From positions 2,627,501 through 2,691,500 of the forward strand of contig NC_018645.1 of NCBI RefSeq assembly GCF_000307105.1: DNA of 64,000 bases. Direction: 5' to 3'. Shown here piece after piece: positions 10,473 through 55,074 of this stretch. The notes beneath the pieces were generated by a model. It saw only the letters and a program-made list of their open reading frames with translations. It made no database searches and was not told the DNA's origin. Origin of the DNA: Desulfobacula toluolica Tol2 (lineage in GTDB: Bacteria; Desulfobacterota; Desulfobacteria; Desulfobacterales; Desulfobacteraceae). Position numbers and translations under genes: made by a program. Within the stretch, counting starts at the first letter, position 1; the number at the start of each line of letters is the position of its first letter.

Positions 10473-10518
10473 TTTTTGTTCTCCCGTATTTAAATTTATC
10501 ATCATCATTTTGAATTGA

Positions 10519-11478: not shown

Positions 11479-11500
11479 AAGCCTCCTGGTTTTTAATAAA

Positions 11501-11577: not shown

Positions 11578-11588
11578 AAAACTCATCA

Positions 11589-12557: not shown

Positions 12558-12586
12558 TATTTAACCCCCTGTTAAACTTTAATCTG

Positions 12587-13549: not shown

Positions 13550-13566
13550 GGCATGCTCCTTTCTAA

Positions 13567-14889
13567 TTAAACTTCAATTTGAAAAGAAGGATCAAATATA
13601 TTACTTTTGACATTTATTCCCGTTATCCTGAATTTATCAAGAAATTTCGGCCTGATCCCGTTAAACCGGAAAAATCCCTTAACATCTCCTTTTTCATCAA
13701 CCCTTGTCTGTTTAAATGAAAATATTTCCTGCATGGTAATCATGTTGCCTTCCATTCCGGTAATTTCCTGCAGACTTACAACCTTTCTTTTACCGTCTGA
13801 AAGCCTTGAGACCTGGATTACGATGTGTATTGCAGAACTTATAAACCGCCTTATGAATTCACTGGGTATATCAAAATTTGCCATGGCCACCATTGTCTCA
13901 AGTCTCATCAATGCATCCCTTGCACTGTTGGCATGAATCGTGGTCAAAGACCCGTCATGCCCCGTATTCATGGCCTGCAGCATATCAAATGATTCAGACC
14001 CTCTTACCTCTCCTACAATAATCCTGTCCGGTCTCATTCTAAGGCTGTTTTTAAGCAGATCCCGCTGAATTATCTCTCCTTTGCCCTCTATATTTGCCGG
14101 CCTTGTTTCCATTCTGACAAGATGCTCCTGTTTGAGCTGAAGTTCAGCCGCATCTTCAATGGTTACAATCCTCTCAGTTTCAGGAATAAACCGGGAAAGA
14201 ACGTTAAGCAGCGTTGTTTTTCCGCTGCCGGTTCCCCCTGAAATAAGAATATTTAATCTTGATTGTACCAATCCCTCTAAAATACTCCTGAATTCAGGTA
14301 CAAGAGTTTGATTTTTAATGAGATCATCAAGTTCCAGCGGCACAACTGAAAATCTTCTAATGGATACCATGGGGCCGTCAAGGGCAAGGGGAGGTATGAT
14401 AACATTAACCCTGGAACCGTCGGCAAGCCTTGCATCCACCATTGGATTTGATTCATCAATCCGTCTTCCGATTGAAGAAACTATTTTATCAATGATTTTC
14501 ATCAAATGTTCATCATTTCTGAATCTTGCATTGGTTGACTCAATTTTTCCAAACCGTTCCACATAAATCTTTTTGTAAGAATTAACCATAATATCTGAGA
14601 TGGTCGGATCTTTTAAAAACGGTTCCAAAGGTCCAAGCCCCAGGACTTCATCAATCAATTCCGTTAAAATTTTCTCTCGTTCGGAAAAATTTAACGGCAT
14701 CTCATCGGATTCTTCTCGTAAAATTTTTTCCGTAACATGCTTGATTTGTTTGACCAGTGTTTCCTTGTCCATGGTATCAATGATGGACAGATCAATAATA
14801 TCAAGAAGACGTTCATGAATCATGGCCTTGAATTCAAAATATTCATCAGGGATATATTTGTTTAAGCCGGACTTCGGAGCTATAGTCAT
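13567..14889 (-). CDS. tadA: Tad pilus assembly ATPase TadA/CpaF
   Basis: A 440-residue secretion ATPase of the VirB11/CpaF group. It shows Walker A ([12 protein letters not shown], about residues 217-228), an Asp box, Walker B ([14 protein letters not shown]), the His box ([18 protein letters not shown]) and the N-terminal [19 protein letters not shown] motif. It powers Flp pilin assembly, and in some species retraction, from the cytoplasm. It lies 42 nt downstream of tadZ with a GGAG ribosome site. Confidence 0.95.
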
Positions 14890-14931
14890 TGAATACTCCT
14901 TGTATTTTTATTGTTTTTACCGGAAACTGCC

Positions 14932-16077
14932 TTAAAAGAACCACATTTTTTTTCTCTTTATATTTTCAACCCCCAGGAGTTTTTCAACATAATCATTAAA
15001 ACTTTTAACAATCCTCGACTTTTGTGCAACCTGGTAAAGAGGTTTGCCCGAATTGATTGCCGACATGGTTGTAGAATAATCGTTTGGAATAACCCAGGAC
15101 AATTTTTTTCCTACTCCTTCCTCAGCACTGCTCAGGGAAACCATGCCTTTCTTAAGATATCTGTTTAATACTATTTTTACATTTTCTTTATCAATATAAC
15201 CATACTCAACAATTGAATTAACAAGCCTGTTTGTATTAGACAGACAAGGAAGGCTTTGAATGGCAATGACATGGACAAGATCAGACATTTGAACAATTCT
15301 CAAAGCAGTTTCATTCATAGACTGACCAAGATCAATAATGATATAATCATATTTGTTTTTCATCAGATCCAGAAGTGTTTCCATAATGGTAGGTGTGGGT
15401 GACGGATGGTTGTTTAAATACCTGGGTGACGGTAAAACATGTACGCCTGTGGCGTGTTCGGTTAAAATATTTGCTAAAAAAAACTCATCCAGACGTTCTA
15501 TGTTTTGAGTGATGTCACCCCAGTTATGTTTGGGGGAAATGTCCAGTAATATGGGCACGTCTCCAAATATTATATTCATATCAAGCAGTGCAACTGAGGG
15601 GTTTTCTTGATTTACGGCTATACTTACCGCAAGATTGACTGCAACGGTTGTGGTTCCAACCCCTCCTTTACTGCCGAGAATACTGTAAATTTTTCCTGAA
15701 GAGCCGGATGTCGTATGCTGAAGCTTTTCATATCTTTTTTTAAATCGATTTAATGCATCCTTAATAAGTTCAGGCTTCAAAGGAACTGGGAAAAACTCCT
15801 TAATACCGATTCTCAATGCCTGGATTAAAATTTCAGGATCTGACCGTTTGGATACCAGGAATATTTCTGTTGTATCAGCCTTGTCCAAAAACAACTGAAG
15901 ATTATTCAACTCTTCTTCATAATTTTCGCCCAATTCGCATATCAGCAAATCCGGTTCTTGCTTTTCTTCCTGAGAGATGACTTTAAATACTCCGGTTTCA
16001 TTAATCGCCGTTTTAAATTCAGTATTGAGTTCTTGATTTTTGACAGATAGATTAACAAAAAATTTAATTCCTGGCAT
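14932..16077 (-). CDS. tadZ: Tad pilus localization protein TadZ/CpaE
   Basis: A 381-residue protein: an N-terminal receiver-like atypical domain (about 1-120, no obvious phosphoacceptor pattern) followed by a MinD/ParA-type ATPase domain with a deviant Walker A (GSKGGVGTTTVAVNLA, about 132-147), switch I region and IIDLGQSMNETAL Walker B. TadZ/CpaE marks the pole or site where the Tad machine assembles. It lies between the tadG-like gene and tadA, its usual position. Confidence 0.92.
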   Translation of the reverse strand: MPGIKFFVNLSVKNQELNTEFKTAINETGVFKVISQEEKQEPDLLICELGENYEEELNNLQLFLDKADTTEIFLVSKRSDPEILIQALRIGIKEFFPVPLKPELIKDALNRFKKRYEKLQHTTSGSSGKIYSILGSKGGVGTTTVAVNLAVSIAVNQENPSVALLDMNIIFGDVPILLDISPKHNWGDITQNIERLDEFFLANILTEHATGVHVLPSPRYLNNHPSPTPTIMETLLDLMKNKYDYIIIDLGQSMNETALRIVQMSDLVHVIAIQSLPCLSNTNRLVNSIVEYGYIDKENVKIVLNRYLKKGMVSLSSAEEGVGKKLSWVIPNDYSTTMSAINSGKPLYQVAQKSRIVKSFNDYVEKLLGVENIKRKKMWFF

Positions 16078-16101
16078 CAGCTCTTTCTCCTATTCCACAA
16101 C

Positions 16102-17469
16102 TTATTGAACTAAATTGGGAATATTCCCTTTAATATTAGTACCAGTACCGCCACCACCACGCCCGTCAGCAACAATTGTTCCGCAGTCGATACAAACTTC
16201 AATATTATTATCAGGCGGTCCATTGGGCATTCTAACTTTGATAGTCGCAACTTTTATTATTTTTTGAGTTTGGTTTGGGTTCTCACAGGGTAATGATTCT
16301 TCATAAACAGGAACTGTAGATGTCCATATAAGATCTGCATCCACACAATCCCCACAAAAAAAGGTTTGAGTTGACGCACATCCCCATTCAGAATTGATAT
16401 CTTCATCATTATCACGGAACCTAAAAAAATCAAACAAAGTATAAAAAGGAATGGGCCCAGGCAACTTCCCATCCTTATCCAATTTCTTCGATGCAGTAGT
16501 TTGGTCAGGGATACCGTCGGCATTATATGTTCCATAATAAGTCCCAGTAAACAAGGACGCAATGGTTCCACCTTGAAACTCAAAATCTGTAGGGAGATTA
16601 TATTCGGGCATTGTTGCTACCACAACATCCTTATTAAATGAAAAATAAGTATTTAACCAATCTTTACCTTCTGTTTTTGAATCACCTTCATAGGCTTCAA
16701 TAAACCCAAAAAATCTATCGGCAAGGACACTTGCATTAATTGGATCTTTAAAATTATGCCATCCGGCACAACTGGTATTTGTTGGAGAAAAGTCTATGAT
16801 TTCCTTACAAAAGTCTTCATCCTCCAGCATCCAAATATCTGAAATCCCAATTGGCATAACCAGCTCTCCCTCTCCTATCACTGAGGGTCCAGATAAAGCG
16901 GCTGTAGCAATAGTGAAAGATTCAAATGTATCATGGCTTGCACCAAAAAGTGAAAACATCTTTCCAAAAAATGTTGCAACAGGACTGTTGATAACAGAAT
17001 CTCTTCTTGCTCTGACACGAACCGCATCAGACCCAACTAATGTTGGTGTTAAAGCATTCATAAGATTTGTTTCATCCCAATCCCAGGTTCCAATAACAAT
17101 ATCATCACTTGCAATATCAATGGGTATTTTAGCTGCTTCATTTTCCTTTGCGATATTTATGGCAGCATTTTTGATTACAGTTTGTTGATCAATTGAAAAA
17201 TTATAATTAGTATGAGATGCTTGAGGCAGGGTCAAATAAATTCTTCCCAGTTCACTTGTTGCGGCAAGAGCGGCAGCATCAGCTACATCCTGTAGTTCAT
17301 TACGCGTAGCATACATATACCCGACATCAACAGCTAAAGCCGTAAAACAAAAAAGCATAGCTAAAACAATTGCAACGATAATTGCGGAAACACCATTTTG
17401 ATTATTTAGAATGAGGTTGGGCTTTATTCTTTTAAAAGAAAATTTTTTGTTAAATAAATTATAAATCAT
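16102..17469 (-). CDS. TadG-like pilus-associated protein
   Basis: A 455-residue protein starting with a prepilin-like segment: basic leader, QNGVSAIIVAIVLAMLFCFT membrane stretch, then the TadG hallmark VDVGYMYATRNELQDVADAA...LAATSEL. The long C-terminal part is periplasmic, has scattered Cys pairs (FFCGDCVDAD, EVCIDCG) and no recognised enzymatic domain. TadG proteins are minor components linked to pilus stability or surface binding. It follows two TadE-like genes in the operon. Confidence 0.82.
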   Translation of the reverse strand: MIYNLFNKKFSFKRIKPNLILNNQNGVSAIIVAIVLAMLFCFTALAVDVGYMYATRNELQDVADAAALAATSELGRIYLTLPQASHTNYNFSIDQQTVIKNAAINIAKENEAAKIPIDIASDDIVIGTWDWDETNLMNALTPTLVGSDAVRVRARRDSVINSPVATFFGKMFSLFGASHDTFESFTIATAALSGPSVIGEGELVMPIGISDIWMLEDEDFCKEIIDFSPTNTSCAGWHNFKDPINASVLADRFFGFIEAYEGDSKTEGKDWLNTYFSFNKDVVVATMPEYNLPTDFEFQGGTIASLFTGTYYGTYNADGIPDQTTASKKLDKDGKLPGPIPFYTLFDFFRFRDNDEDINSEWGCASTQTFFCGDCVDADLIWTSTVPVYEESLPCENPNQTQKIIKVATIKVRMPNGPPDNNIEVCIDCGTIVADGRGGGGTGTNIKGNIPNLVQ

Positions 17470-40803: not shown

Positions 40804-41793
40804 ATGAAAAATCAAATGTTCAACCTGACATCTGTCTTTATCTGGCCTGTTTTATGCGCCTTAATCCTGTATCCATTTTCCGCACAAGCTGCACCAACCG
40901 GCAAGCTGACCATTTTTCATGCGGGAAGTTTAACCGTACCGTTTGCAAAGATTGAAAAAGCATTTGAAGCCAAATATCCCGGAGTTGACGTACAGCGTGA
41001 AGCCGGCGGCAGCACAAAAATGGCACGCCTTATTTCAGAAGTCGGCAAAACCGCCGACATCATGGCATCTGCAGATTACACAGTTATTGATAATAACCTG
41101 ATCCCGAAATTTGCCGACTGGAATGTGCGGTTTGCCACAAACCAGCTGGTTCTGTGTTACACAGACCAAAGCAGGTATTCAAATCAGATCAATGATAAAA
41201 ACTGGTATGAAATTTTACAAAAAAAAGATGTGGTCTGGGGCCATTCCGATCAGAATATTGATCCCTGCGGATACCGCAGTATTATGGTGTTGCAGCTGGC
41301 TGAAAAATTTTACAATATCGACGGACTTTATCAAAAACTCATTGACAATCGTCCCCAGAAAAACATCCGGCCCAAATCCGTTGAACTGGTCAATCTGCTG
41401 AAAACCGGGAACATGGATTATGCCTGGGAATACATGTCAGTGGCTATTCAGCATGAATTAAAATTTGTAACGCTTAACGATCACATCAACCTTGGCAATT
41501 ACAAATATGACGACTTTTACAAACAGGCCCAGGTAAAAGTCACGGGTAAAAAACCCAACACATGGATTACAAAAAAAGGAAAATCCTGCACATACGGGAT
41601 TACCCTTATTAAAGACGCTCCCAATCCTGAGGCGGCAAAAGCCTTCTTAAGCTTTCTTCTTTCTTCCGAGCATGGTTTAAAGACTTTAAAAGAGATGGGA
41701 CAGCCTCCTTTTATTCCCTGCCGTGTGCCGACCCAGGAGATGGCGGCCAAACTTCCGTCTGAAATCAAATCCCTGGTTGAAGTAAAAAATTAG
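40804..41793 (+). CDS. wtpA: tungstate/molybdate ABC transporter substrate-binding protein, WtpA type
   Basis: A 329-residue periplasmic protein with a signal peptide (to about 29, FSAQAA). The mature part starts [15 protein letters not shown] and has EREAGGS-like [35 protein letters not shown] and [13 protein letters not shown], which follow the archaeal-type WtpA/ModA family binding tungstate or molybdate by octahedral coordination. An AGGAG site precedes the ATG. Permease and ATPase genes follow. Confidence 0.9.
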
Positions 41794-41797
41794 ATCA

Positions 41798-42580
41798 ATG
41801 AAACGGATCGAACCCTTAAACTGGCTGTTCATGTTTTTAAGCCTGCCGTTGATTCTTCTTCTGACATTGCCTCTGATTAAAATGACATTTGAACCCACTT
41901 TTGAAATGCTCATAGAGACAATATCAGACAAGGATGTAGTGGCTGCCATCGCAAGATCCATAAGCCTGTCTCTTTGTGCAGGCATTCTTTCTTTTGCAAT
42001 GGGAACCCCTCTTGCGTATCTTCTGGCCAGAAAGAGCATCATGGGGAAAAAAATAATAGAGGGGATCATTGATTTACCGATCATGATCCCCCATCCTGTT
42101 GTGGGTATTGCCATTCTCAGCCTTGCCGGAAGAAACCATCCCATTGGCAGGTTCCTGTCTGAATTTGGAATCCAAATCATGGGCACCCGGACCGGTATTG
42201 TCTGTGTGTTGCTCTTTGTGGGTCTTCCATTTTATGTAAACACTGTAAAAGCAGGTTTTGACAGCGTCCCGGTCCGACTTGAAAACGCCTCCCGCACACT
42301 TGGTGCGGGAGCATTCTCAACCTTTATGCGCATCACATTTCCGCTGACCTGGCGGCACATGATACTGGGCATCATCATGTGTACGGCCAGGGCAATCAGT
42401 GAATTCGGAGCGGTTGTCATCGTGGCCTATCATCCTATGACCGCACCTGTTATGATCTATGAAAGATTTACGGCTTACGGACTGAAATACTCACAACCCA
42501 TTGCTGTCTGGCTGATTATCATTTCATTTATTTTATTTGTTGTTTTGCGAATGCTGTCACGATCAATTAATCAATCATAA
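41798..42580 (+). CDS. wtpB: tungstate/molybdate ABC transporter permease, WtpB type
   Basis: A 260-residue permease with six membrane segments and the EAA-type loop (ENASRTLGAGAFSTFMRITF), plus PLAYLLARKSIMGK and RAISEFGAVVIVAYHPMTAP typical of ModB/WtpB. It starts four bases after the wtpA stop, without a separate ribosome site, so it is translated by coupling. Confidence 0.92.
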   Translation: MKRIEPLNWLFMFLSLPLILLLTLPLIKMTFEPTFEMLIETISDKDVVAAIARSISLSLCAGILSFAMGTPLAYLLARKSIMGKKIIEGIIDLPIMIPHPVVGIAILSLAGRNHPIGRFLSEFGIQIMGTRTGIVCVLLFVGLPFYVNTVKAGFDSVPVRLENASRTLGAGAFSTFMRITFPLTWRHMILGIIMCTARAISEFGAVVIVAYHPMTAPVMIYERFTAYGLKYSQPIAVWLIIISFILFVVLRMLSRSINQS

Positions 42581-42624
42581 ACCTTATTAAAAATTAAAAA
42601 AACAATAATAGTATCCATAAAAAC

Positions 42625-43665
42625 ATGATCCGTCTAAAAAACATCAGCCTGACCTTGCCTGACTTCACATTGGAGGAAATAAACCTTCATATAAAAAAGA
42701 ATGACTTTTTTGCATTGATCGGTCCCACAGGCTCTGGAAAGTCTTTGCTGCTTGAGGGAATGATTGGGCTTATCCCGTTTTCAAGCGGGAATCTATTGCT
42801 TGAAAACCATGACAGCACAACCATGGCTGTTGAAAAACGAAACCTTGCCATTGTTTACCAGGATTTTGCATTGTTTCCCCACCTGGATGTGACACAAAAT
42901 ATATTTTATGGTGTGTCCTATCACAAAATCCCCAGGCAGACCGCCCAAAAAAGGTTTGATGCCCTTGTCTGCACACTGGGACTGGAAAAAATAACCAGGC
43001 GTCGTCCGCAAAATTTGAGCGGTGGTGAAAAACAGCGGGTTGCCCTTGCTCGATCTCTGATTTTAAATCCCAGGGTGCTGCTTTTAGATGAACCCTTATC
43101 TGCGTTGGACCCGGTATTTCACGAAGAGGCCAAACAACTGTTAAAAAAAATCCACGCTGACCTGGAGATCACCATCATAATGGTATCCCATAATTTTTCA
43201 GATGTGCTGTATCTTGCCAACAGGGGCGCAATCATAAAAAACGGCCGAATCATGCAGCAAGGCGAAATCGTAACCATATTTGAAAGACCTAATTCAAAAT
43301 TTACAGCTTCTTTTGTCGGAATGAAAAATATCAATCCCATCAGTAAACTAAACGGCGAAATAATTTTAAAAGACAAGAACATTAAAATAACACCTGCCCA
43401 CAAACCCGGTAACACGGATAAATATATGGGCATTAGACCCGAAGACATTTCTTTAAACACCTTTGATTCAAACAATTTTAAAAACTGCTTTGAGGGACAA
43501 ATTAAAAGAATAACAAGTAATGGTGTTTTTTTAAATATTTATATTCAAACTCAAAATTTTGAGTTTGAAGCAATTTGGCCGCGAAGCTATATTCGGGATC
43601 ATGACCTGGATATTGGCAAACGCGTCAGGTTTGGATTTCACCCCGAATCCGTCCATACCTTTTGA
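42625..43665 (+). CDS. wtpC: tungstate/molybdate ABC transporter ATPase, WtpC type
   Basis: A 346-residue ABC ATPase: Walker A GPTGSGKSLLLE (about 32-43), Q-loop VYQDFALFPHLDV, signature LSGGEKQRVALARSL, Walker B VLLLDEPLSALDP and the H-loop VSHNF. The C-terminal 100 residues form a TOBE-like domain (MGIRPEDISL...) common in oxyanion importers. It completes the wtpABC operon, 44 nt after wtpB. Substrate is inferred from WtpA. Confidence 0.9.
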   Translation: MIRLKNISLTLPDFTLEEINLHIKKNDFFALIGPTGSGKSLLLEGMIGLIPFSSGNLLLENHDSTTMAVEKRNLAIVYQDFALFPHLDVTQNIFYGVSYHKIPRQTAQKRFDALVCTLGLEKITRRRPQNLSGGEKQRVALARSLILNPRVLLLDEPLSALDPVFHEEAKQLLKKIHADLEITIIMVSHNFSDVLYLANRGAIIKNGRIMQQGEIVTIFERPNSKFTASFVGMKNINPISKLNGEIILKDKNIKITPAHKPGNTDKYMGIRPEDISLNTFDSNNFKNCFEGQIKRITSNGVFLNIYIQTQNFEFEAIWPRSYIRDHDLDIGKRVRFGFHPESVHTF

Positions 43666-44568: not shown

Positions 44569-44675
44569 GGAAATAGAGGGCACCATGAGCGAGTCAAAAT
44601 CCCAACATACTGTTTGGGTTGAAAATAAATTTTTATGAGGACATCAATTTAAACCAGCAAAAAAGGAGAAGGATT

Positions 44676-46346
44676 ATGAAAAGAAAAATAATCTGCTTAG
44701 CTGCTTTTTTTTTAGCATTTATCATGGTGCAGATTGTAAATGCAGCGGGGCCTGTCGCCGGGTTATTCCTTGTTGATTCGCCAACCCTGCTTTCCGATAA
44801 TAGTGCCGAGATATTTATAGACAAGAACTCAGATGGCGAAGTTACACCAGGGGATATTCTTGTGACGATAACCGGTATAACGACCATCCATAGTACCACG
44901 ATCGGATCCGGCACTGCCTACAACGAAGTAACCGCCCTTACGGCCATTAAAATCTTATCAAGTAACAACACAGATGTTGGACCAGTGGGACCGGACGATA
45001 GCTTTGGTGATCAAAATATCGATCTGTATGAGTTTCTCGCAGGGCCGGTTGGCCCAGCAGATTCAGCCTGGTTTAACTGGTCAACGGGAGAAATCAACTT
45101 GGATGGGGCGGGGACGGCGGAATTTACCTTCACACCGGTTTCAGGTGCTTCAAATGACGGAATATTATTGGGATTTGTGTATGAAGATTCTGCACAAAAC
45201 TATAACCGGTCAATAGGGATACAAGAAGGCTTAACCGCCACATCCGACGGGGATTTGCGGCTTACTATAGGGCTTATCCCCGAAAACAGTGATTTTCTTT
45301 CTGTAAGAGCCCCTCTTTACCCCGGCGCTTTCGGAGCCATCACGTCATCAACTGCAATAGACAATACAAATATCTCTCTCGATGCCACAATTCTTACTCA
45401 AAATTGGGCACCCCTGAATTTCAACGACAATTTCACCGGTGGTAACGGCGGATTTTCCAGCCCGGAATCGAGCAGCCAATGGCCAATTTACGACAACCTG
45501 GATTTTACTGTTACAGTCGTCTCAGAAGTCATTCCGGGAGAGTGCAGGATGACAGGCGGAAATGCGACGGTCAGCCCCGCTGTTGGTGCCGATGGACTGC
45601 CAACATGGACCTATCTTTATGAGGGCGAGGATAACGACTACTGGATAACCACCGGAGGGCAGATCGGTGCGCCCTCAGGAGGTGAGTCTCGTGGGCACTG
45701 GACCCATACGCAGCACGGCGGTGCCGAAGGCAGCTTTGGCTTCCACTCCGGCACATCATCTGCGCCTGAAGGAACTGAGATCAGTACAATTGAATGCGCG
45801 GATCCGGGCTGGTGCGTGCAGGCCCGTTGTGCTCCCTTCAAGCAGATTTTCTGGACAGGAATCGGTATTTTTGCCTTCCAGCATTTTGATGCGGAATTGC
45901 CGGGCGTTGTTCCTTACAAAAAGAATAACCCGGCCAGTACCTTTCATTATTACAGAGCCATGGTAGGCGATTTCGGAGAAAACGACAGGCCCACGAGGGA
46001 AGCATCACTTATCGACGAGAACACGGACGGCTGCAACTGGATAGACAGACTCAAAGAGGCCGGTTTTGATACCCCTCCCGGACCCTACGAAGCCTCTGAT
46101 GCTGTTTTTCTGGATAGTGAGCCGGATCCTCAATTTGGCGATAAAGGCGGACAAATCTGCGACAAATGCCCCGATTACTATCAGATCGAGATTTACGCCA
46201 AAGGAGATCCGAACGATCCGGGAGAGATCATTTACAAATTTCAGGGCTTTCTGGAGCATGGCAACTATCAGATACACCCTGAAACAGGTGAAAAATGTCC
46301 GGCAATTATTGAGCTGATTCCGGAGCTTTTTGAATCAAAAAAATAA
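44676..46346 (+). CDS. secreted protein: PEP-CTERM-paralogue N-half plus unique Cys/His-rich C-module
   Basis: About 556 residues. A signal peptide (1-23, IVNAAG) is followed by an N-terminal half (about 25-285) clearly homologous to the next gene (DNSAE.FI..., TTIGSGTAYNEVTALTAIKI, GPDDSFGDQNIDLYEF, FTGGNGGFSSPESSSQWP). The C-terminal 270 residues differ: CRMTGGNATVSP, RGHWTHTQHGGAEGSFGFHS, ECADPGWCVQARCAPFKQIF, then CDKCPDYYQIEIYAKGD. It has no PEP-CTERM tail, so it is probably released, or attached in another way. ATG 44676 has AAAAGGAG upstream. The C-module resembles repeated uncharacterised bacterial extracellular domains; function unknown. Confidence 0.8.
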   Translation: MKRKIICLAAFFLAFIMVQIVNAAGPVAGLFLVDSPTLLSDNSAEIFIDKNSDGEVTPGDILVTITGITTIHSTTIGSGTAYNEVTALTAIKILSSNNTDVGPVGPDDSFGDQNIDLYEFLAGPVGPADSAWFNWSTGEINLDGAGTAEFTFTPVSGASNDGILLGFVYEDSAQNYNRSIGIQEGLTATSDGDLRLTIGLIPENSDFLSVRAPLYPGAFGAITSSTAIDNTNISLDATILTQNWAPLNFNDNFTGGNGGFSSPESSSQWPIYDNLDFTVTVVSEVIPGECRMTGGNATVSPAVGADGLPTWTYLYEGEDNDYWITTGGQIGAPSGGESRGHWTHTQHGGAEGSFGFHSGTSSAPEGTEISTIECADPGWCVQARCAPFKQIFWTGIGIFAFQHFDAELPGVVPYKKNNPASTFHYYRAMVGDFGENDRPTREASLIDENTDGCNWIDRLKEAGFDTPPGPYEASDAVFLDSEPDPQFGDKGGQICDKCPDYYQIEIYAKGDPNDPGEIIYKFQGFLEHGNYQIHPETGEKCPAIIELIPELFESKK

Positions 46347-46504: not shown

Positions 46505-47446
46505 ATGAAACTCAAAGCGATTTTATCAGTTTTTTTATTTGTATCAATGTGTTTCGCTACAAGCGCTGCTGCCTTATCGGTTTCTCCCCTGATTGACACC
46601 ACAGGGGGGAGTACCCTTTTTTCAGACAACAGTGCTGATTATTTTATCAACGTAGATGGTTCGGTCTCGGGGGGTGGTACTGCAACGGTTACCACGGGTG
46701 ATATCCTTTTTACAATGGTCGGCATAAATACCATTGGTGATACCACCATCGGCAGTGGAACCTCGTATAATGAAGTAACTGGGTTTACCGCAGTTAAAAT
46801 TGCAACCGCTAGTGATGTTGATTTGGGTCCTGCAGGCCCCGACGACAGCTTTGGAACCCAAGCCATTGATCTGTTTCAATACACTGCAACGCCCCTGACT
46901 GCTGCAGATGCTATATACTTCAATTGGGCGACCGGTCAAATCAACACAGATGGCGCTGGCGCTGCTGAATTTACATTTGCGACCGACGGCAAGACCACCA
47001 ATGATGGGAACTTCCTGGGTTGGGTGTTTGAGGATGCCGGGCGGGATTATAACAGGGATGGCACCGTTCAGGCGGGGATCGATTCAGCAGTAGGTGGAGA
47101 TCTTCGCCTTTGGCTGGATATGTCAAATGCAGGTGATTTCCTGTCTGTAATAGCACCTTTTGACCTTGGCGATTTCGGAAGCATCCCGAATTCAACCGCA
47201 ATAGACAATGCAAATATTGCGCTGGATGCGACTATCCGAGACTATGATTGGGGATCGCTTATCTTTGGATCTAACATTACCGGCGGAAATGGCGGTTTTT
47301 CATCACCAACTGACAGTTCAAGCTGGCCGGCTTTTGACAATCTTGACTTCACACTTACCGCTAGCATCCCTGAGCCTGCCACATTGGCATTGTTTGGTAT
47401 CGGCTTGCTTTCAATCGCTGCAGTGGGCCGAAGACGTAAAGGCTAA
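46505..47446 (+). CDS. PEP-CTERM sorting-domain extracellular protein
   Basis: A 313-residue secreted protein: signal peptide (to about 24, TSAAAL), a beta-rich Gly/Asp/Thr body without Cys beyond the signal, and a textbook PEP-CTERM tail (SIPEPATLALFGIGLLSIAA then GRRRKG). Exosortase (EpsH/XrtA type) recognises Pro-Glu-Pro, cuts, and the protein goes to the surface or exopolysaccharide. The exosortase itself is not in this window. AAAGGAG lies eight bases upstream. Its body is paralogous to the N-half of the preceding gene. Confidence 0.92.
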   Translation: MKLKAILSVFLFVSMCFATSAAALSVSPLIDTTGGSTLFSDNSADYFINVDGSVSGGGTATVTTGDILFTMVGINTIGDTTIGSGTSYNEVTGFTAVKIATASDVDLGPAGPDDSFGTQAIDLFQYTATPLTAADAIYFNWATGQINTDGAGAAEFTFATDGKTTNDGNFLGWVFEDAGRDYNRDGTVQAGIDSAVGGDLRLWLDMSNAGDFLSVIAPFDLGDFGSIPNSTAIDNANIALDATIRDYDWGSLIFGSNITGGNGGFSSPTDSSSWPAFDNLDFTLTASIPEPATLALFGIGLLSIAAVGRRRKG

Positions 47447-47543: not shown

Positions 47544-49565
47544 TTATTTGGTGATGCTTAATAAAGGAGATTCCCTTTGTGTTCTTCTGGAATTTTTATC
47601 GCAGGTTCCCATCCTGAAAAACATCAGATAATGCAAGCCTTTGTTGATGCCTTTAATTTGATTCAAACTGTTTTGAAATGTTTGAATCCATTGTTGATGA
47701 TCAGATCTGAACTGGTGCGCCCCATCAGCAGCCAAATGATTTAAAAGAAAGACAAACCCGGCCATGGGCTGCAAAGAGAGACCAAGTGAATTTGCCTTGA
47801 TCCAAAATCTTTCCATGATTCTGCCGCCGGCAACGTAGGTTTCAGGCTTCCTTTTTTTTATTGCTATCAACCCATATGCCGGAGACGATTTCAGAAGTCT
47901 GACGGAATTCAATGCTGCCATGCGGCTTGCACCAAATTTATTCATAAATTGCATCTTCTTCCAGTCAGACATCAAAGGGAAGATTAATTGTTGTATGTAA
48001 TTCAAACCAAGGACATCTAAATTCATGCCGTCTTTTTTATGGCCTTTACTCAAATTTAACCATTGAAACAGACCGTTGTGCAGTCTTTCTTCTTCAAACA
48101 GTACCCGATCTGCATCAAACACGATTTTCTGCAATATTTTTTTATCTTTCGCATTATCGATCCATATTAATTCAGCCTCAGATGTTTGAGCGACCAACTC
48201 TTTTAATGCAGTAAAAATTTTTTGATCAATTTCTTTTTTAGCATAAGGTTCCCTGTTTACACATCTTGACAAAACACAAGAAAAAAGAGGATCTTCCCTG
48301 ATCCTTTCAACAACGAATTTTAAATCAATAATGATATCTGAATCATAGCCAGCCGGAAACAACTCTATTTGGGTTTTTAATCCAAAATGAGATGCGGCAA
48401 TGGATATGTTTTCCATTAAAGCGCCGAAGGTCAGGTATGTTGATTCCTGGTTAACATCATAAAAAAAACCGCACTTTTCCGGATCTTTAAGCAGAGACAG
48501 CACATTACCATCCCATACAAATTTCCATGGCTGACAATTATCTGCAGAAGGCGCCCATATCCCGACAGTTATTATGTATTTAAGGATGTCTTCCGGGATA
48601 CCATTGTTAAAGTTTTCCGGAATGGGCGGAATATCTATTTTGGGTGGCATGAATTTTTTATTTTTTTCAAGTATATTTTTTATTATAAACATCTTTATTA
48701 TCTGCAAGGGATTTTTATTTCCCATAAAAAGACGACCTTTACGTAGTTTCTGAAGATAAGGATCATACTGAACATAATACGGCACAGGTTTTATTGTTCC
48801 TTTTTTTAAAATAATCTTTAAACTTTCAGTTGCTGCCATGCCGGAACAAATCTGACAGGCAATGTTTAAAGACGGGCCGGCCTTTGACTCAAGATCAACT
48901 TTTTTCAAATTCATATATCGGATGTGGGTCGGTTTTGGAGAAAGCCCTATAGCAAAAGAAAGATACTTATCTTTATCTTTCAGACCATCTCGTATATTAA
49001 AATATTCATCAAAGCCCATTCCATCAGGGGAGAAGACAAGCATAGCAGAACTGAAACCCATGGGACCGGCTGTAATGACATAAATCCCTTTTTCAGCGGC
49101 CTTATTAAAAAGCAGTCTTCTGATATCAAATTTAAAAAAATCAAGTCCGTCTATGACAACTTCCACCCCGTCAAGGAATCGATCCATATTTGATTCATTT
49201 ATCCCATCCTTGAAAAGAGAAATCTCAAGATAGGGGTTAATGGAAAGGGCCTGTTCTTTCATCACTTCTATTTTAGGTCTTCCAAAATCCGGTACCCTGG
49301 CGCCAAACTGACGATTGATATTAACAGGCTCATACACATCAAAATCTGCAATATGAAATTTGCCGACCCCTGTCCTGGCCATAGTGATCAGATGAATTCC
49401 CCCTACTCCGCCCATGCCGGGGATTGCAATTTTAGCATGGGAAAGCTTTTTTTGTTCTTTCAGGGTTAACAGGCCGATATTTCTGGCAAATGCCTGGGAA
49501 ATATATTCTTCCTTGTTTGTAATCCCATAATTTTCAAGTGTTTCAAACATGGAATCAGGTTCCAT
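47544..49565 (-). CDS. ThiF/E1-like adenylyltransferase fused to nitroreductase (Rv1355c-like)
   Basis: A 673-residue fusion. The N-half (about 25-275) is a ThiF/MoeB/E1 fold with nucleotide loop GMGGVGGIHLI, DFDVYEPVNINRQF and DGLDFFKFDIRRLL; the C-half (about 320-640) is a nitroreductase-type FMN domain (GIWAPSADNCQPWKFVWDG, then GGRIMERFWIKANSLGLSLQ). This matches the little-known Rv1355c family. ThiF domains adenylate a C-terminal carboxylate, and nitroreductase domains perform FMN redox steps, so a biosynthetic or tailoring role is likely (inference). AAGGAG precedes ATG 49565; it follows the MMPL gene by 11 nt. Confidence 0.85.
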   Translation of the reverse strand: MEPDSMFETLENYGITNKEEYISQAFARNIGLLTLKEQKKLSHAKIAIPGMGGVGGIHLITMARTGVGKFHIADFDVYEPVNINRQFGARVPDFGRPKIEVMKEQALSINPYLEISLFKDGINESNMDRFLDGVEVVIDGLDFFKFDIRRLLFNKAAEKGIYVITAGPMGFSSAMLVFSPDGMGFDEYFNIRDGLKDKDKYLSFAIGLSPKPTHIRYMNLKKVDLESKAGPSLNIACQICSGMAATESLKIILKKGTIKPVPYYVQYDPYLQKLRKGRLFMGNKNPLQIIKMFIIKNILEKNKKFMPPKIDIPPIPENFNNGIPEDILKYIITVGIWAPSADNCQPWKFVWDGNVLSLLKDPEKCGFFYDVNQESTYLTFGALMENISIAASHFGLKTQIELFPAGYDSDIIIDLKFVVERIREDPLFSCVLSRCVNREPYAKKEIDQKIFTALKELVAQTSEAELIWIDNAKDKKILQKIVFDADRVLFEEERLHNGLFQWLNLSKGHKKDGMNLDVLGLNYIQQLIFPLMSDWKKMQFMNKFGASRMAALNSVRLLKSSPAYGLIAIKKRKPETYVAGGRIMERFWIKANSLGLSLQPMAGFVFLLNHLAADGAHQFRSDHQQWIQTFQNSLNQIKGINKGLHYLMFFRMGTCDKNSRRTQRESPLLSITK

Positions 49566-49576
49566 TTTTTATCTCC

Positions 49577-51859
49577 TTAATCTTTATAAAACTCAACTCC
49601 CATACCAGACAAAAGGAGTGCCACAGAAGGAAGAATCAGAATATCACCAATAACTGCTGTTACCATAATAATTGAGCTGAGAACCCCGAAATTGATTGTG
49701 GGTACAAACCGGCTGAATACCATCACTCCGAAGCCTATGCATAAAATCAGGGAAGAAAGAAGAATTGCCCTGCCTTTAAACAAAATTGAATTTTTTACTG
49801 AGTCTTTGATATCTTTCCTCTTTGAAAGATTGCGCTTAAACTCGGAAAGGAAATGAATGGTATCATCCACGGCAATACCAATGGCAACAGCTGCGATCAA
49901 AGCTGTGGCCGTGTTCAAGGGAATTTTAAACAGTCCCATGATCCCGAAATTAAACAAAATTGGAAAAAGATTAGGGATGATGCTGATTGTTCCCATTGAA
50001 AAGGATCTCAAAACAAAAAACATGATGAGAATAATAATTCCGGCGGCAGCGGAAAGGCTGTAGATCTGACCTTTTACAAGTGCATCAATGGTATTTACGT
50101 CCTGTAGAGCCCTTCCCGTGATTCGAATTTCCATGCCATTGGGTTTAAGATTATTGATAAATTCGTCAATTTTCTTAATGATCATCTCCTGGATTCTGGT
50201 TGAATGCTCTGACAATCTTACAGAAATCTTAGCATGATCAAATGATTCATTTACAAAATCATTGATATCATCCGAGTCATACATGAGAAGATATTGAGAG
50301 ATCAGCGCTTTTGAGTCTGGAATACTCAAATATTTCAAATTTTCATTATGGAAGGATTGATTCATATCCTTTATGAAATCAACAAAGGAAAGGGTTTTGT
50401 CAACTCCTTCAAGACTATTGATGTACATCTGAATCTTCTCAACAACTTTTAATTTATCAGGATTTTTAAAAGCATCTTCCTGAGCAGAACTGATGGAAAT
50501 GTCCAACGTCACCATACCTGCCAGGTTGCCTTCAACAAAATCAGAAGATATTCGGACCCCACTGTTTTTTTTAAAATAATCAAGAAGATTAGTTTCAACC
50601 TGGATCCTGGAAGAAAACCAAATTGATCCCATAATGATAAAAAGCCCGAAACAACAAATCAGTTTAAAATTATTGACAACAAAGTTTGATATTTGCCCAA
50701 GAATCCTGTGTATTTTTTTCTCCTTTTGTTTATCCTGGAATATTTTCTTTTCATTTAAAATAAGAATAAGCGGCGGTAGAAACACAAAAGAAAAGAAAAA
50801 CTCAAAAATCATTCCGCAAGCTGCAACAAGTGCAAAATCCTTTATGGGCGGAATGTCACTTAAGTATAATGAAAGAAATCCAACGGCCGTTGTAAGAGTT
50901 GTTAAAAAACAGGGCGCAATAACTTTTTTCAAAACATGGGCCAGGGCTTTTTCTTTTGTTCCAAACCTCACCAAAAGATCTTTGTTTAAATGGGAAAAAA
51001 TATGTACCGTATCACAAAGGGCCAACGCCATGACAACTGGCGGGACTATTGTTGTGACATTATTCAGGGTTATATCAAAAACAGGAAACAACCCCATAGT
51101 GGACCCCATGCATATTGATATATTAAGGATTGCAATAAGGGTAAGCCATATATTACGGAAAAAGAAAAAAACGGCAAGAGTGATAAAAAGGTATGTAATG
51201 GGTATGAACGTTGCTATATCCTTTTTCATATACTGGCTTAAATACAAATTTGTTGTTGTCCAGCCAGCCATATAAATTTTACCGGTTCGGCTCTTGTAGT
51301 TATCAAGAATTTTTTCACATTTCCCAATAAGCCTTTTTCTATACCCAGGGTCATCAGGCTTGTCATAAACGGAAATAATAATTGCGGTTGTTTTCCCGTC
51401 AGACGAGATAAGATTGTTAACATACAGAGGATTGGTCAGGGCGCTTGTTTTTAGTTTGTCAAGATACTCTCTGCTATCGGACATTTCTTCAAGAAACTTT
51501 TGAACAATAAAAAAATCATTTTCCCCTATTGTATCATTAACATTGGCAAGACTTTTGACCTCCCGCAATTCTTCAATCTGCTCAAGGTCGTCGGTGATGT
51601 CTTTTAAAATCGTCAGAGTATCATATGTAAAGATATTCTCTTTTTTAAAGGCTATAATAAAAAATTCATCGTTACCAAAAATTTCTTTGATATCATCATA
51701 AAACTCGATATCCGGATCATTTTCCAGGGTGAAATAATCGACATTATCTACTGTTTTGATTTTGGGAAGATACACAACAAAGGGGATTGAAATCAAAAGT
51801 GAAAGTATTAAAAAAAAAACCTTGTGTTGTGTAATTTTATCCATATAAAAAACAGGCAT
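49577..51859 (-). CDS. MMPL/RND-family exporter
   Basis: A 760-residue transporter with two repeats of six membrane helices and large periplasmic loops (about 40-210 and 430-570). RND hallmarks include ALALCDTVHIFSHLNKD in helix 4 and AVAIGIAVDDTIHFLSEFKR in helix 10, with the conserved Asp residues for proton relay. Such single-subunit MMPL proteins usually move lipids, hopanoids or other hydrophobic products to the periplasm. It diverges from the acyltransferase gene and precedes the ThiF-nitroreductase gene. Confidence 0.9.
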   Translation of the reverse strand: MPVFYMDKITQHKVFFLILSLLISIPFVVYLPKIKTVDNVDYFTLENDPDIEFYDDIKEIFGNDEFFIIAFKKENIFTYDTLTILKDITDDLEQIEELREVKSLANVNDTIGENDFFIVQKFLEEMSDSREYLDKLKTSALTNPLYVNNLISSDGKTTAIIISVYDKPDDPGYRKRLIGKCEKILDNYKSRTGKIYMAGWTTTNLYLSQYMKKDIATFIPITYLFITLAVFFFFRNIWLTLIAILNISICMGSTMGLFPVFDITLNNVTTIVPPVVMALALCDTVHIFSHLNKDLLVRFGTKEKALAHVLKKVIAPCFLTTLTTAVGFLSLYLSDIPPIKDFALVAACGMIFEFFFSFVFLPPLILILNEKKIFQDKQKEKKIHRILGQISNFVVNNFKLICCFGLFIIMGSIWFSSRIQVETNLLDYFKKNSGVRISSDFVEGNLAGMVTLDISISSAQEDAFKNPDKLKVVEKIQMYINSLEGVDKTLSFVDFIKDMNQSFHNENLKYLSIPDSKALISQYLLMYDSDDINDFVNESFDHAKISVRLSEHSTRIQEMIIKKIDEFINNLKPNGMEIRITGRALQDVNTIDALVKGQIYSLSAAAGIIILIMFFVLRSFSMGTISIIPNLFPILFNFGIMGLFKIPLNTATALIAAVAIGIAVDDTIHFLSEFKRNLSKRKDIKDSVKNSILFKGRAILLSSLILCIGFGVMVFSRFVPTINFGVLSSIIMVTAVIGDILILPSVALLLSGMGVEFYKD

Positions 51860-51875
51860 AATTCCTTAAAATATC

Positions 51876-51904
51876 TTGACAAACGGCCTATAAAAATAAA
51901 TTAT
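51876..51904 (+). promoter_or_regulatory. sigma-70-type promoter of the acyltransferase unit
   Basis: TTGACA (51876-51881), 17-base spacer, AATTAT (51899-51904; four of six). On the opposite strand a perfect TATAAT (51903-51908) may serve the MMPL gene, so the two promoters overlap and could be co-regulated. Confidence 0.45.
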
Positions 51905-51965
51905 AAAACAATGACCATTTAACAAATATATTCAATTCAGTCAATTCTAAACAGGACTAATTTCA

Positions 51966-52736
51966 ATGATTAACAAAAACAACAATCTCCGTTATGGAAA
52001 ATTCAGATTTGGATTGGTTGAACATAAAAATGTACTGGAAGATACTTTTCGAATGCGTTATGAAGTCTATGTCCGGGAATTTGGTTTTGAAAAAGCAACC
52101 GATCATCCCGGCGGACTTGAAACAGACGATTATGAAAATGATTCGATCCATTTTGCCTGCCTGAATGAAAATGATTCAGTGGTTGGAACCATAAGGCTGG
52201 TATTGGATTCAGATAAAGGCTTTCCCATTGAACATGCCGTCAAAACAAGCTTTGTCGGTGAAAAACCTGACAGATCAAAAATTGGTGAAATTTCAAGACT
52301 GACTGTGAGTAAGGATCTTAGACGAAGAAAAGAAGACGGGATGTATGGCGTGGAAGCCTATCTCAAAAAAAAAGAAGGAGGGGTGTTGCCTGATGACGGC
52401 TCCATTCCCGCTGAAATGCAGGGAAGAAAAAATCCCATTATTGTACTGGGACTCTACCAGGTCATGTACCATGAAAGCCGAAGACGCAGTATAACCCACT
52501 GGTACATGATCACAGAAAAAAAAATATTTTACGCCCTGAAAAAATACGGGTTTCTATTTCACCGGATCGGAGAGTCCGTGCAATATCATGGTGAAAGAAT
52601 TCCCTATCTTGGGATTATTGATGAAATTGAAAAAAATTTGATTAAAAATGATCCGGATATGCTTAACATCATGCTGGCAGGACTTGAAAAACAATATCAT
52701 CCGTCCCTTAAAATTGATCAGGCTAAAAATGAATAA
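51966..52736 (+). CDS. PEP-CTERM/exosortase-associated acyltransferase (LuxI/FeeM-like GNAT)
   Basis: A 256-residue protein of the autoinducer-synthase-like GNAT superfamily: FRMRYEVYVREFGFE (the R-Y/H-x-V-F/Y motif), DSIHFACLNENDSVVGTIRL, IGEISRLTVSKDLRRRKED and THWYMITEKKIFYALKKYGF. It fits the family annotated as PEP-CTERM/exosortase system-associated acyltransferase, related to N-acyl amino acid synthases. It probably joins an acyl chain from acyl-ACP to an amine substrate (inference). Its stop overlaps the next start by eight bases. Confidence 0.87.
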   Translation: MINKNNNLRYGKFRFGLVEHKNVLEDTFRMRYEVYVREFGFEKATDHPGGLETDDYENDSIHFACLNENDSVVGTIRLVLDSDKGFPIEHAVKTSFVGEKPDRSKIGEISRLTVSKDLRRRKEDGMYGVEAYLKKKEGGVLPDDGSIPAEMQGRKNPIIVLGLYQVMYHESRRRSITHWYMITEKKIFYALKKYGFLFHRIGESVQYHGERIPYLGIIDEIEKNLIKNDPDMLNIMLAGLEKQYHPSLKIDQAKNE

Positions 52737-53523
52737 ATATTGTTTTATATTAAAAATATTGTTTCTTGCCGTCTTCATAGGCATTACGGGGGGTAACCTG
52801 CTGGCTGCTGCCCAGAAAAAATTAACAGGCCATTGGATTGCACAACAGGTTTTTGACAGAGACCGTGGTAAAAATTCAATTTCATCTGCTTCTATGGTTT
52901 TGGTCAACAAAAAAGGCAAGAAAAGATCACGAACATTTACAAACCTCAGAATTCTGGAAGATGGATTGGAAAAACAGCTCATCAGATTCACCTCTCCTGC
53001 AGACATTGAGGGTACGGGCTTTCTCACCATAGAAAAAACCGGGGATGAAACAGATCAATTTTTATATCTCCCAGCATTGAGGCGCACCAGAAGGATTGTA
53101 TCCTCCCAAAAATCTCACAGGTTTGTAAACAGTGATTTCACGTACGAAGATATGGAAAGACATCCGGTTGATAATTATACTTATGAGCTGAAAGGGGAGA
53201 AAACAGTCGAAAACATCGAATGCCATATCCTTGAAATCCGGCCTAAAAAAAATATTGCCTCTCAGTATTCTTTGACGAAAAGTCTCATTTCAAAAACCTC
53301 ATTTGTGCCGGTTTTTGCAGAATATTTTGACCAAAAAGGCAAACAGATAAAAACCTATAAAGCTCTTAAACTGGAATTACAGCAAAACATCTGGACAGAA
53401 TCCATCGTTGTGATGGAGGATTTAATTAAAAATCATAAAACCTTTATAAAAATCCAGCATATTGAATATAATACCGATATTACTTCAAAGCAGGTTTCAA
53501 GGGCTGCTCTTGAAAACTATTAA
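52729..53523 (+). CDS. LolA-fold periplasmic (outer-membrane lipoprotein-sorting-like) protein
   Basis: About 264 residues. After a signal peptide (to about 25, GGNLLAAA) comes the LolA/LppX-like fold described as outer membrane lipoprotein-sorting protein: SSASMVLVNKKGKKRSRTFT, LIRFTSPADIEGTGFLTIEK, DQFLYLPALRRTRRIVSSQK and FVNSDFTYEDMERHPVDNYT. Members of this subgroup occur beside MMPL transporters and probably carry the exported lipid across the periplasm. ATG 52729 is preferred over an upstream codon because it yields the signal peptide and an ATGAATAA overlap with the acyltransferase. Confidence 0.87.
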   Translation: MNKYCFILKILFLAVFIGITGGNLLAAAQKKLTGHWIAQQVFDRDRGKNSISSASMVLVNKKGKKRSRTFTNLRILEDGLEKQLIRFTSPADIEGTGFLTIEKTGDETDQFLYLPALRRTRRIVSSQKSHRFVNSDFTYEDMERHPVDNYTYELKGEKTVENIECHILEIRPKKNIASQYSLTKSLISKTSFVPVFAEYFDQKGKQIKTYKALKLELQQNIWTESIVVMEDLIKNHKTFIKIQHIEYNTDITSKQVSRAALENY

Positions 53524-53604
53524 CCCAAATCATTCTCTATCTATCATTATTTTGGCATTATGTTTGCTTTAACCCTATTTAACATTTTATTAAAAAATTT
53601 ATGC

Positions 53605-55074
53605 ATGCTTAAAATTTCAAAAAATACCATTATATTAACACCCTTTATTTTTTTAGGGGTACTTTCTATCTTTCTTCCTACAGAAATCCATGCACAACCT
53701 TCAAACAAAACCATACAGCCTTCATTTGATATAACCGCCCAAAACGAAACTCTGGAAGAATCGATCTTTGATGAAACTGAAGACATAAAACATAAAAAAA
53801 CGGAATTGAATTTTTCCGGTTCTCTTATTTTGCGGCCATCCATTGATATGGATCATGATAAAACAAATGAAAACAAAACCAGTTTTAAAAACAAAATTAT
53901 TCTTGAAGCCAACTACAAGAAAAAATTTGTCATATCCGGGATTTCAGATTATCTGTTTTTTGGGAGTCAAAATGAAACAGATGATTATGATATAAATTTT
54001 TATGAATTATATTTTAAGCATCGTATAAATTATTTTAATATCTCCGTAGGAAAACAGATTAAACGATGGGGCAAGACTGACCAGATTAGTCCAATAGACA
54101 CATTAAATCCTGAAAATACAACTGAATTTATTATCCCGTCCTATGACGAAAGAAAAATCCCTGTCTGGATGGCTGATGTTGTGTTCAAGAAGAATATTTT
54201 TTTTATTGAATGCGTATTAATCCCATTTTTCGAACCATCAAAATTCAACTATTTTGGAACTGACTGGGCAACCTTTTCCCATTTAAAAGAGGATATTAAA
54301 GATTCATCTCTTCCCTCCACCCTGAAATCCTATTTTGATTCTATAAAAATTAACGAAACCGAACCAAATGATAACGTGGACAGTTTTGAATATGCCCTGA
54401 GAGTGGGAGGAACGATTCAGCAATTGGATTTTGGATTTACCTATCACCATGCATTTGAGGATTTACCCTGTTTTAAAAGTTTTCCGGTTAAGAACCTGTC
54501 CCTGGAAAATCCAAATTCCATTCAAAGCCTGCTATCAAACCCGGGAAATCTAACATTAACAAATGAAAAAATTGAAGCCACATACCTGCGAAGCAATATT
54601 TTCGATTTTGAATTTGAAACCATAGTATCTGATCTGGGGATCAGGGGTGAGGCCGTGTGGAAGGACAATGAATCATTCCTGACCCGTTCATTTACTTCGC
54701 TCAGGAATCCTACATTTTTCTGGATTATCGGGGCAGATTATACCAGTTCAAATAATTGGTATTTCAACCTTCAATTCGCTCACCAACACATTTCAAATTA
54801 TGATGCCTCCACTTTATTTTTCGATAGAGACACTTATTCACTTATTGGAGAGATCAACAAAGATCTGTTTTCCGACTGGTTAAACGCTGTTGTTCAATAT
54901 ACCATCATATTAAACGACGGTTCTTATTATGTATCCCCCCGATTGGTTTCCACTCATATTAAAAACCTGGAAGTGACCTTGGGTTTGAATCTGTTTGAAG
55001 GTTCTGACAACAGTATATTAGGTCGCTACGATGTAAACGATCAGGTTTTTATTGATTTGAAATATTATTTCTGA
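53605..55074 (+). CDS. outer-membrane beta-barrel protein (DUF1302-like)
   Basis: About 489 residues: signal peptide (to about 30, PTEIHAQ), then alternating beta strands such as FYELYFKHRINYFNISVGKQ, IKRWGKTDQISPIDTLNPEN and a C-terminal aromatic residue (DLKYYF) typical of BAM-inserted barrels. Its layout (G-K-Q...W-G...P-x-D) resembles DUF1302 proteins, which co-occur with MMPL and LolA-like genes. It probably completes an envelope-spanning export route. The true start could also be ATG 53560; neither has a clear ribosome site. Confidence 0.75.
   Translation: MLKISKNTIILTPFIFLGVLSIFLPTEIHAQPSNKTIQPSFDITAQNETLEESIFDETEDIKHKKTELNFSGSLILRPSIDMDHDKTNENKTSFKNKIILEANYKKKFVISGISDYLFFGSQNETDDYDINFYELYFKHRINYFNISVGKQIKRWGKTDQISPIDTLNPENTTEFIIPSYDERKIPVWMADVVFKKNIFFIECVLIPFFEPSKFNYFGTDWATFSHLKEDIKDSSLPSTLKSYFDSIKINETEPNDNVDSFEYALRVGGTIQQLDFGFTYHHAFEDLPCFKSFPVKNLSLENPNSIQSLLSNPGNLTLTNEKIEATYLRSNIFDFEFETIVSDLGIRGEAVWKDNESFLTRSFTSLRNPTFFWIIGADYTSSNNWYFNLQFAHQHISNYDASTLFFDRDTYSLIGEINKDLFSDWLNAVVQYTIILNDGSYYVSPRLVSTHIKNLEVTLGLNLFEGSDNSILGRYDVNDQVFIDLKYYF

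Follow-up and report, generated by a model that had tools for sequence, protein, structure and literature searches.

What is made, and where is it sent, by a locus in which genes for a putative lipid-forming enzyme pair share two divergent units with genes for a pump, a periplasmic carrier and an outer-membrane barrel? This question is raised by Desulfobacula toluolica Tol2, in a stretch of 64,000 nucleotides of contig NC_018645.1 (positions 2,627,501 to 2,691,500; hereafter the window, whose numbering is used unless the genome is named). Our answer, to which we give a probability of about 0.62, is that these genes together produce a long-chain acyl-oxazolone lipid and move it out of the cell. 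Observed directly in its favor are the gene content, the kept residues, the recurrent clustering, the replacement of the pump by an ABC transporter, and gene fusions that stay within either the synthesis half or the export half. The features concerned are these:

47544..49565, minus strand: ThiF-nitroreductase fusion, OxzB/TrzS-like, with a predicted ThiF cyclase (residues ~1-300) and flavin-dependent oxidase (~310-673); Pfam, NCBIfam and model.
49577..51859, minus strand: MMPL/HAE3-type RND inner-membrane pump; Pfam, NCBIfam and solved relatives.
51860..51965, no strand: divergent intergenic region of 106 base pairs (bp); sequence.
51966..52736, plus strand: N-acyl amino acid synthase (NAS), a PEP-CTERM/exosortase system-associated acyltransferase of the FeeM/LuxI superfamily; TIGR03694 and FeeM.
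52729..53523, plus strand: LolA-like periplasmic carrier with an N-terminal signal-like stretch; Pfam LolA_like.
53560..55074 (open reading frame, ORF), plus strand: outer-membrane beta-barrel, a remote DUF1302 relative; predicted model and the DUF1302 match of a homologue.
46505..47446, plus strand: PEP-CTERM protein gene adjoining the cluster; PF07589, 29.5 bits, cut-off 20.7.

The five ORFs, their two divergent units and the gap between these had been described in an initial annotation of the DNA, and all were recovered at the same positions, as was the overlap of exactly 8 bp between the acyltransferase and LolA-like genes. Its family assignments (MMPL, ThiF-nitroreductase, exosortase-associated acyltransferase, LolA fold) agree with Pfam and NCBIfam, its barrel with the predicted model, and the PEP-CTERM gene does adjoin the cluster. 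On the minus strand, the MMPL gene is followed after an 11-bp gap by the ThiF-nitroreductase gene, and AAGGAG sits 7 bases upstream of the ATG of the latter. The mechanical ORF of the LolA-like gene begins at 52648, but we read 52729 as its start, which opens a signal-peptide-like stretch; for the barrel, 53605 is a likelier start than 53560. A promoter scan of the intergenic region gave a lone promoter-like match (51876-51904), not above shuffled sequences (mean 1.6). The divergent acyltransferase//MMPL arrangement is kept in relatives, and the full order, with ThiF and nitroreductase behind MMPL, was seen again in L220, L221, L223 and L224.

The case for an oxazolone begins with the fusion protein, which matches Pfam ThiF (3.3e-46) and Nitroreductase (1.1e-7). 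Among NCBIfam models, it passes the cut-off of 266 for PRK08223 (NF006077), a ThiF-type family of unnamed function, with 387.5 bits over residues 22-306, and reaches 780.2 bits over residues 1-665 of itself with PRK14851 (NF011424; cut-off 1170 not reached). Its match to the Rv1355c (TrzS) family NF005901 (2.9e-77, 260.5 bits) stays below the curated cut-off of 476, and we regard it as related to TrzS without filing it as TrzS. In an alignment with E. coli ThiF, the ATP and adenylation residues are intact (GxGGxG, D74, D76, N82, R85-Q86, K98 and D142 of the fusion). D142 occupies the alignment column of D125 in E. coli ThiF and does not vary across the fusions (23 of 23); we infer that its counterpart in TrzS is Asp217. 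Foldseek searches with the predicted model (pLDDT 88) returned ThiF and AclA structures for one half and Acg (2YMV) for the other, the oxidase-domain fold agreeing with 2YMV at a TMt of 0.80. Within that domain Q599 is present in 22 of the 23 fusions and R487 is kept only partly; the two are 112 residues apart, compared with 111 for Arg540 and Gln651 of TrzS, a spacing that suggests a possible match. Among the named loci listed, the closest ThiF domains belong to metagenome-assembled genomes (MAGs) of Desulfobacula (72%) and Deltaproteobacteria (71%).

Other roles for the ThiF domain were considered and rejected. For a molybdopterin or thiamine role, named ThiF/MoeB models gave at most 96 bits, versus 780 for PRK14851 and 387 for PRK08223, and no MoaD/ThiS-like gene lies within the two units. 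Ubiquitin-like conjugation was set aside as no partner gene was found within the two units, and an anti-phage, Cap2-like role reached 29 bits only.

The acyltransferase lies in the same cluster, two genes from the fusion, and exceeds the cut-offs of both TIGR03694 (171.4 bits, cut-off 111.95) and FeeM (7.2e-10, 39.3 bits, cut-off 27). Its Glu108, inside an EISR motif, is shared by 79 of the 82 sequences in an alignment and probably corresponds to the catalytic Glu of Nas354, whose exchange abolished activity (PMC4897644). A quorum-type acyl-homoserine lactone synthase was rejected, with 26.5 bits for Autoind_synth versus 171 for TIGR03694. At a distant site (genome position 1253279-1253770), the genome encodes another acyltransferase of the FeeM type (140.5 bits).

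This enzyme pair has described relatives. OxzA/OxzB, TrzA/TrzS and TyzA/B/C make acyl-oxazolones by a route in which an aromatic amino acid is N-acylated, the ThiF part cyclizes it with ATP, and an Acg-type flavin oxidase desaturates the product; the dependence of desaturation on O2 was shown for Tyz and Trz (PMC10404671, PMC12856293). By its anatomy, the synthesis half would be a member of this kind. As in OxzAB of Pseudoalteromonas rubra, the acyltransferase is encoded together with a single-chain ThiF-nitroreductase fusion (PMC10404671, PMC12856293), whereas the Desulfobacula host is presumed anaerobic and its acyltransferase is of the exosortase-associated type; an exporter adjoins the pair in the window. 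The mycobacterial TrzAS and TyzACB share the acyltransferase, a ThiF cyclase with an essential Asp (in TrzS) and the Acg-type oxidase, but they depend on O2, TyzB and TyzC are separate proteins, and the excerpts of the two reports mention neither a LolA-type carrier nor an outer-membrane barrel (PMC12856293, PMC10404671). Comparable to the window, tyzA lies on the strand opposite tyzBC and mmpL9 beside tyz, and the authors raised this neighbor as a possible transporter (PMC10404671). Because the acyltransferase and ThiF-nitroreductase are the described acyl-oxazolone synthetase pair, the product is likely an oxazolone, or else the dehydro-amino acid that its hydrolysis yields.

The export half also has a studied counterpart. 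The pump matches Pfam MMPL above the cut-off (3.1e-33, 115.6 bits) and TIGR00921 (HAE3) below it (4.8e-54, 183.6 bits, cut-off 351.9), with MmpL3 and HpnN among its solved relatives. The carrier matches Pfam LolA_like above the cut-off (8e-57, 192.3 bits), and its solved relatives (9tp6, 4z48, 3bk5) are annotated as lipoprotein-sorting or uncharacterized. No Pfam family rises above the cut-off for the window barrel; its model is a large porin-like beta-barrel (pLDDT 75) that resembles OmpF and AlgE in Foldseek, and a homologue at locus L222, where the pump is of the ABC type, matches DUF1302 (1.3e-16, 61.2 bits, cut-off 23.2). An HAE3-family RND pump, a LolA-superfamily periplasmic protein and a DUF1302 outer-membrane barrel form the core of AmeABCD of Castellaniella defragrans, which differs in giving monoterpene tolerance, in having AmeC, and in that the excerpts of its description mention no acyltransferase or ThiF (PMC6394551). 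Neither unit of the window has a further gene for an AmeC-like second periplasmic protein, the rest of the genome not having been searched. The export half thus appears to resemble AmeABD, and we do not file it as AmeABCD, as AmeC is not in the cassette and the barrel is remote.

Do the two halves belong together? We profiled 115 loci (a contig profile scan kept the best 80 of at least 399 confirmed relatives), and after removal of 9 without this ThiF type and 7 duplicates, 99 distinct loci remained. A phylum set held 20 of the 22 genomes with a strong ThiF match, the host's own genome apart (G391 and G344 were left out), and the controls were the first 20 generic ThiF rows from the same genome set, skipping nitroreductase rows and the second ThiF row of G356. 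Mean locus lengths were 15.6 kb and 15.2 kb, respectively. For the first six profiles, the training sequences were phmmer matches of the window proteins in Desulfobacterota loci, which inflates scores there, and counts of FeeM, ABC, FtsX, glycosyltransferase and methyltransferase in these loci are partly by construction because the profiles were built from recurrent neighbors there. Fisher tests, here and below, ignore kinship.

A nitroreductase was found in 76 of the 99 loci (fused in 31) and an acyltransferase in 58, while exporter parts were rarer (barrel 28, LolA 26, MMPL 22, ABC pair 13). The complete carrier-barrel-pump exporter occurred in 11 of 20 phylum loci versus 0 of 20 controls (p 7e-5), and at least one of MMPL, LolA and barrel in 15 of 20 versus 0 of 20. 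The control loci held no MMPL, LolA, barrel, NAS, FeeM, nitroreductase or FtsX; three had ABC-ATPase matches, one of them together with AMP-binding and methyltransferase matches. Complete exporters were seen in Desulfobacterota, an Acidobacteria MAG, Ectothiorhodospira, Thioalkalivibrio, Porticoccus and Candidatus Nitrotoga, among others. Moreover, in 20 listed loci (18 when the same contigs are counted once, the window included) the ThiF frame directly adjoins the MMPL frame on the same strand. The coupling of synthesis and export genes is real.

Some variations recur among these loci. A nitroreductase is present in 10 of the 22 MMPL loci versus 12 of the 13 ABC-pair loci, some of them at contig edges. 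Six loci (L126, L156, L158, L073, L233 and L234) combine an oxazolone-type ThiF with an MMPL exporter in a stretch where no nitroreductase was found; perhaps these carry out saturated oxazolone or other carboxylate chemistry. A GT1/EryCIII-like glycosyltransferase occurs in 18 of 99 loci (L022, L069, L083, L096, L139, L222 and others) and a methyltransferase in 8, and the lipid may be further decorated there. Methyltransferases recur likewise in the stieleriacine, kyonggic acid and thalassotalic acid loci (PMC12479983).

The exchange of the pump links the halves further. An ABC ATPase with an FtsX/MacB-type permease was found in 13 of the 99 loci, 11 of which also have the barrel. In a ThiF tree with 113 rows, built with a quick method and SH-aLRT only, the 45 rows labeled MMPL or MacB/LolCD-like ABC require at least 9 switches of pump type, which differs even between the near sisters L071/L096 and L069/L072. 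The barrel family is constant across both pump types and the carrier stays LolA-like, although most carriers of the ABC type have diverged, scoring 32-53 bits at 10 of 11 complete loci against the LolA profile trained on the window; that of L222 is PF17131 (157 bits). Pump exchange beside a constant synthetase fits a demand to export the synthetase product by whichever engine. Locus L022, from the host's family, has a carrier-barrel pair beside the acyltransferase as well as an exporter of the ABC type, to which a separate LolA and barrel belong.

Every fusion that we saw stays within one half, linking either synthesis enzymes or components of the exporter. L230 (4197-6818, 874 aa) and L232 (8326-11040, 905 aa) encode FeeM, ThiF and nitroreductase in a single ORF, a complete predicted oxazolone pathway within one chain. 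Adjoining an oxazolone-type ThiF in Candidatus Nitrotoga, L156 (11018-14209) has a 1064-aa MMPL-LolA ORF. MMPL and LolA-like domains likewise occur in one protein, with a porin adjoining, in TOL_3187/TOL_3188 of Thalassolituus oleivorans, which differ in being induced by long-chain alkanes; no oxazolone enzymes are mentioned in the excerpts of that report (PMC6304351).

Within the family of the host, we surveyed 86 genomes. This ThiF type is present in 18 (in G581 and G591 the match lacks the oxidase part), the acyltransferase in 27 at E<=1e-20 (21 of them close, >380 bits) and the carrier in 22 at E<=1e-40 (21 close, >300 bits). A close acyltransferase and a close carrier coincide in 14 genomes (p 1.5e-6), the acyltransferase and ThiF in 12 (p 1.7e-5), and ThiF and the carrier in 9 (p 0.0075). 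In the 14 genomes, carrier and acyltransferase genes overlap in the window, lie ~2-32 kb apart on one contig in nine, and are on different contigs in four.

From these parts, we propose the following pathway. The acyltransferase, judged by its family, would use acyl-ACP or acyl-CoA to attach a fatty acyl group to the amino nitrogen of an amino acid, most likely an aromatic one. The ThiF domain would then adenylate the carboxylate, allowing the amide oxygen to close a 5-oxazolone ring. In the least certain step, the flavin domain may desaturate the alpha-beta bond with an acceptor other than O2; alternatively, it may lie idle without O2 and the product would be a saturated oxazolone. The neutral lipid would finally pass through the MMPL pump out of the inner membrane, to the LolA-like carrier, the DUF1302-like barrel and the cell surface. 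The earlier suggestion that these genes make, tailor and export an acylated amide thus holds in that they belong together and fit such a pathway, while an oxazolone, or the dehydro-amino acid formed by its hydrolysis, is a likelier product than a generic acylated amide.

Several observations weigh against this reading. The exporter is complete in only 24 of the 99 ThiF loci, 12 of 22 MMPL loci show no nitroreductase, and 68 of 113 tree rows have no exporter label, a class that includes loci cut by contig ends. Conversely, LolA-barrel-MMPL modules occur without ThiF in the stretch at L185, L189, L190, L194 and L195, although three genomes of such loci have this ThiF elsewhere (G344, G391 and G543). 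In the host's family, 7 of 21 close-carrier genomes have no close acyltransferase, and of the 14 that combine a close carrier with a close acyltransferase, 5 yielded no ThiF of this type. Since these five keep acyltransferase and carrier, the exporter seems to follow primarily the acyltransferase, with oxazolone tailoring frequent but optional, and it probably serves acyltransferase products in general. Two of the five (L243 and L246) have an AMP-binding ligase near MMPL, a possible substitute tailoring enzyme. The initial annotation had named lack of joint conservation as grounds for giving up its proposal; the contrast with the controls shows that the genes are conserved together, but the five-gene set is not invariant, as ThiF may be missing, the carrier-barrel pair often lies apart, and MMPL is elsewhere replaced by an ABC transporter. 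The chemistry and cargo of the known systems also count against the proposal: TyzC/TrzS desaturation needs O2, mycobacterial tyrazolones and tryptazolones were mostly found in cells (PMC12856293, PMC10404671), and the cargo of AmeABCD, the closest exporter that has been studied, is monoterpenes (PMC6394551). The host genome, a single contig of 5,197,905 bases, encodes dsrA (600.9 bits, cut-off 392.85), which makes sulfate reduction by the host very probable; the host is presumably a strict anaerobe.

It is possible, though doubtful, that the oxazolone is only transient and hydrolyzed, and that what leaves the cell is an open-chain N-acyl amino acid or dehydro form, like stieleriacines or kyonggic acids, with the exporter handling a biosurfactant or signal. 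The producers of thalassotalic acids, kyonggic acids and stieleriacines, whose loci likewise contain NAS, ThiF and nitroreductase, yield open-chain N-acyl (dehydro)tyrosines with no oxazolone observed, and the excerpts mention no exporter (PMC12479983); the family genomes that retain acyltransferase and exporter parts without a detected ThiF point the same way. However, oxazolones hydrolyze in acid and react with alcohols (PMC12856293), so their absence from extracts is weak evidence, and the residues of the ThiF domain are strongly conserved. We consider it improbable that LolA, barrel and MMPL form an AmeABCD-like pump for the efflux of hydrophobes or solvents in general that lies near the acyltransferase by chance, with the ThiF-nitroreductase uninvolved in its cargo. 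AmeABCD does protect against monoterpenes (PMC6394551), and at several loci the module stands without ThiF or NAS in the stretch, but the absence of the complete exporter from all controls, the repeated change of pump beside the same synthetase and the abutting ThiF and MMPL frames at 18 distinct loci argue against this reading.

A further explanation, which we think rather unlikely, is that the locus serves the exosortase/PEP-CTERM exopolysaccharide system, for which its acyl amino acid lipid would be an envelope component, acceptor or signal for polysaccharide or PEP-CTERM display. TIGR03694 is named for this link, and one of three PEP-CTERM matches in the genome adjoins the cluster. The only exosortase match (200.6 bits) lies in an XrtA-type exopolysaccharide locus ~25 kb (<26 kb) past the window end, with an acyl-CoA ligase (TIGR03098) and a decarboxylase (TIGR03099) between it and the cluster. 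These are matters of proximity only. In Methylomonas LW13, a NAS mutant lacked the normal polysaccharide band and complementation restored it; however, the mutant also failed to grow in the gradient system, a defect likewise restored (PMC11072679), and the polysaccharide effect may therefore be indirect. More speculative, and in our view very improbable, is the idea that the oxazolone, an azlactone of cytoplasmic origin, serves not as a secreted signal but as an activated acyl donor; exported through MMPL, LolA and barrel, it would acylate an amine or hydroxyl of exopolysaccharide or PEP-CTERM protein and give a lipid anchor or acceptor for the exosortase system; the saturated form would work in anaerobes.

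Farther from these questions, 44619-46346 and 46505-47446 encode tandem related proteins (~266 bits to each other), of which the second ends in the PEP-CTERM motif and the first has a longer C-terminal part, with no Pfam match at 1e-5. On the minus strand, 9123-17469 holds genes resembling a Tad/Flp pilus set (T2SSE ATPase, TadE/G-like, TPR-LytR_C), and 40804-43665 holds tungstate-type ABC uptake genes, with WtpA above its cut-off and WtpB- and WtpC-like proteins below theirs.

With regard to the acyl-oxazolone exporter that we favor, the initial annotation knew of no described system with this exact set of genes. The union of synthetase and exporter is indeed what is new, as we found no description of them as one system in the open-licence literature, but each half has described relatives, the acyltransferase and ThiF-nitroreductase pair on one side (PMC10404671, PMC12856293) and AmeABCD on the other (PMC6394551). 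The excerpts of both mycobacterial papers call the fate and role of acyl-oxazolones open (PMC12856293, PMC10404671), and a recurrent exporter with an exchangeable engine in several Gram-negative lineages points to the probable destination of the lipid. The dsrA-bearing, presumably anaerobic hosts raise the question of how an O2-using flavin oxidase works there or is dispensed with, and the exosortase neighborhood offers a lead on the chemistry of PEP-CTERM anchoring.

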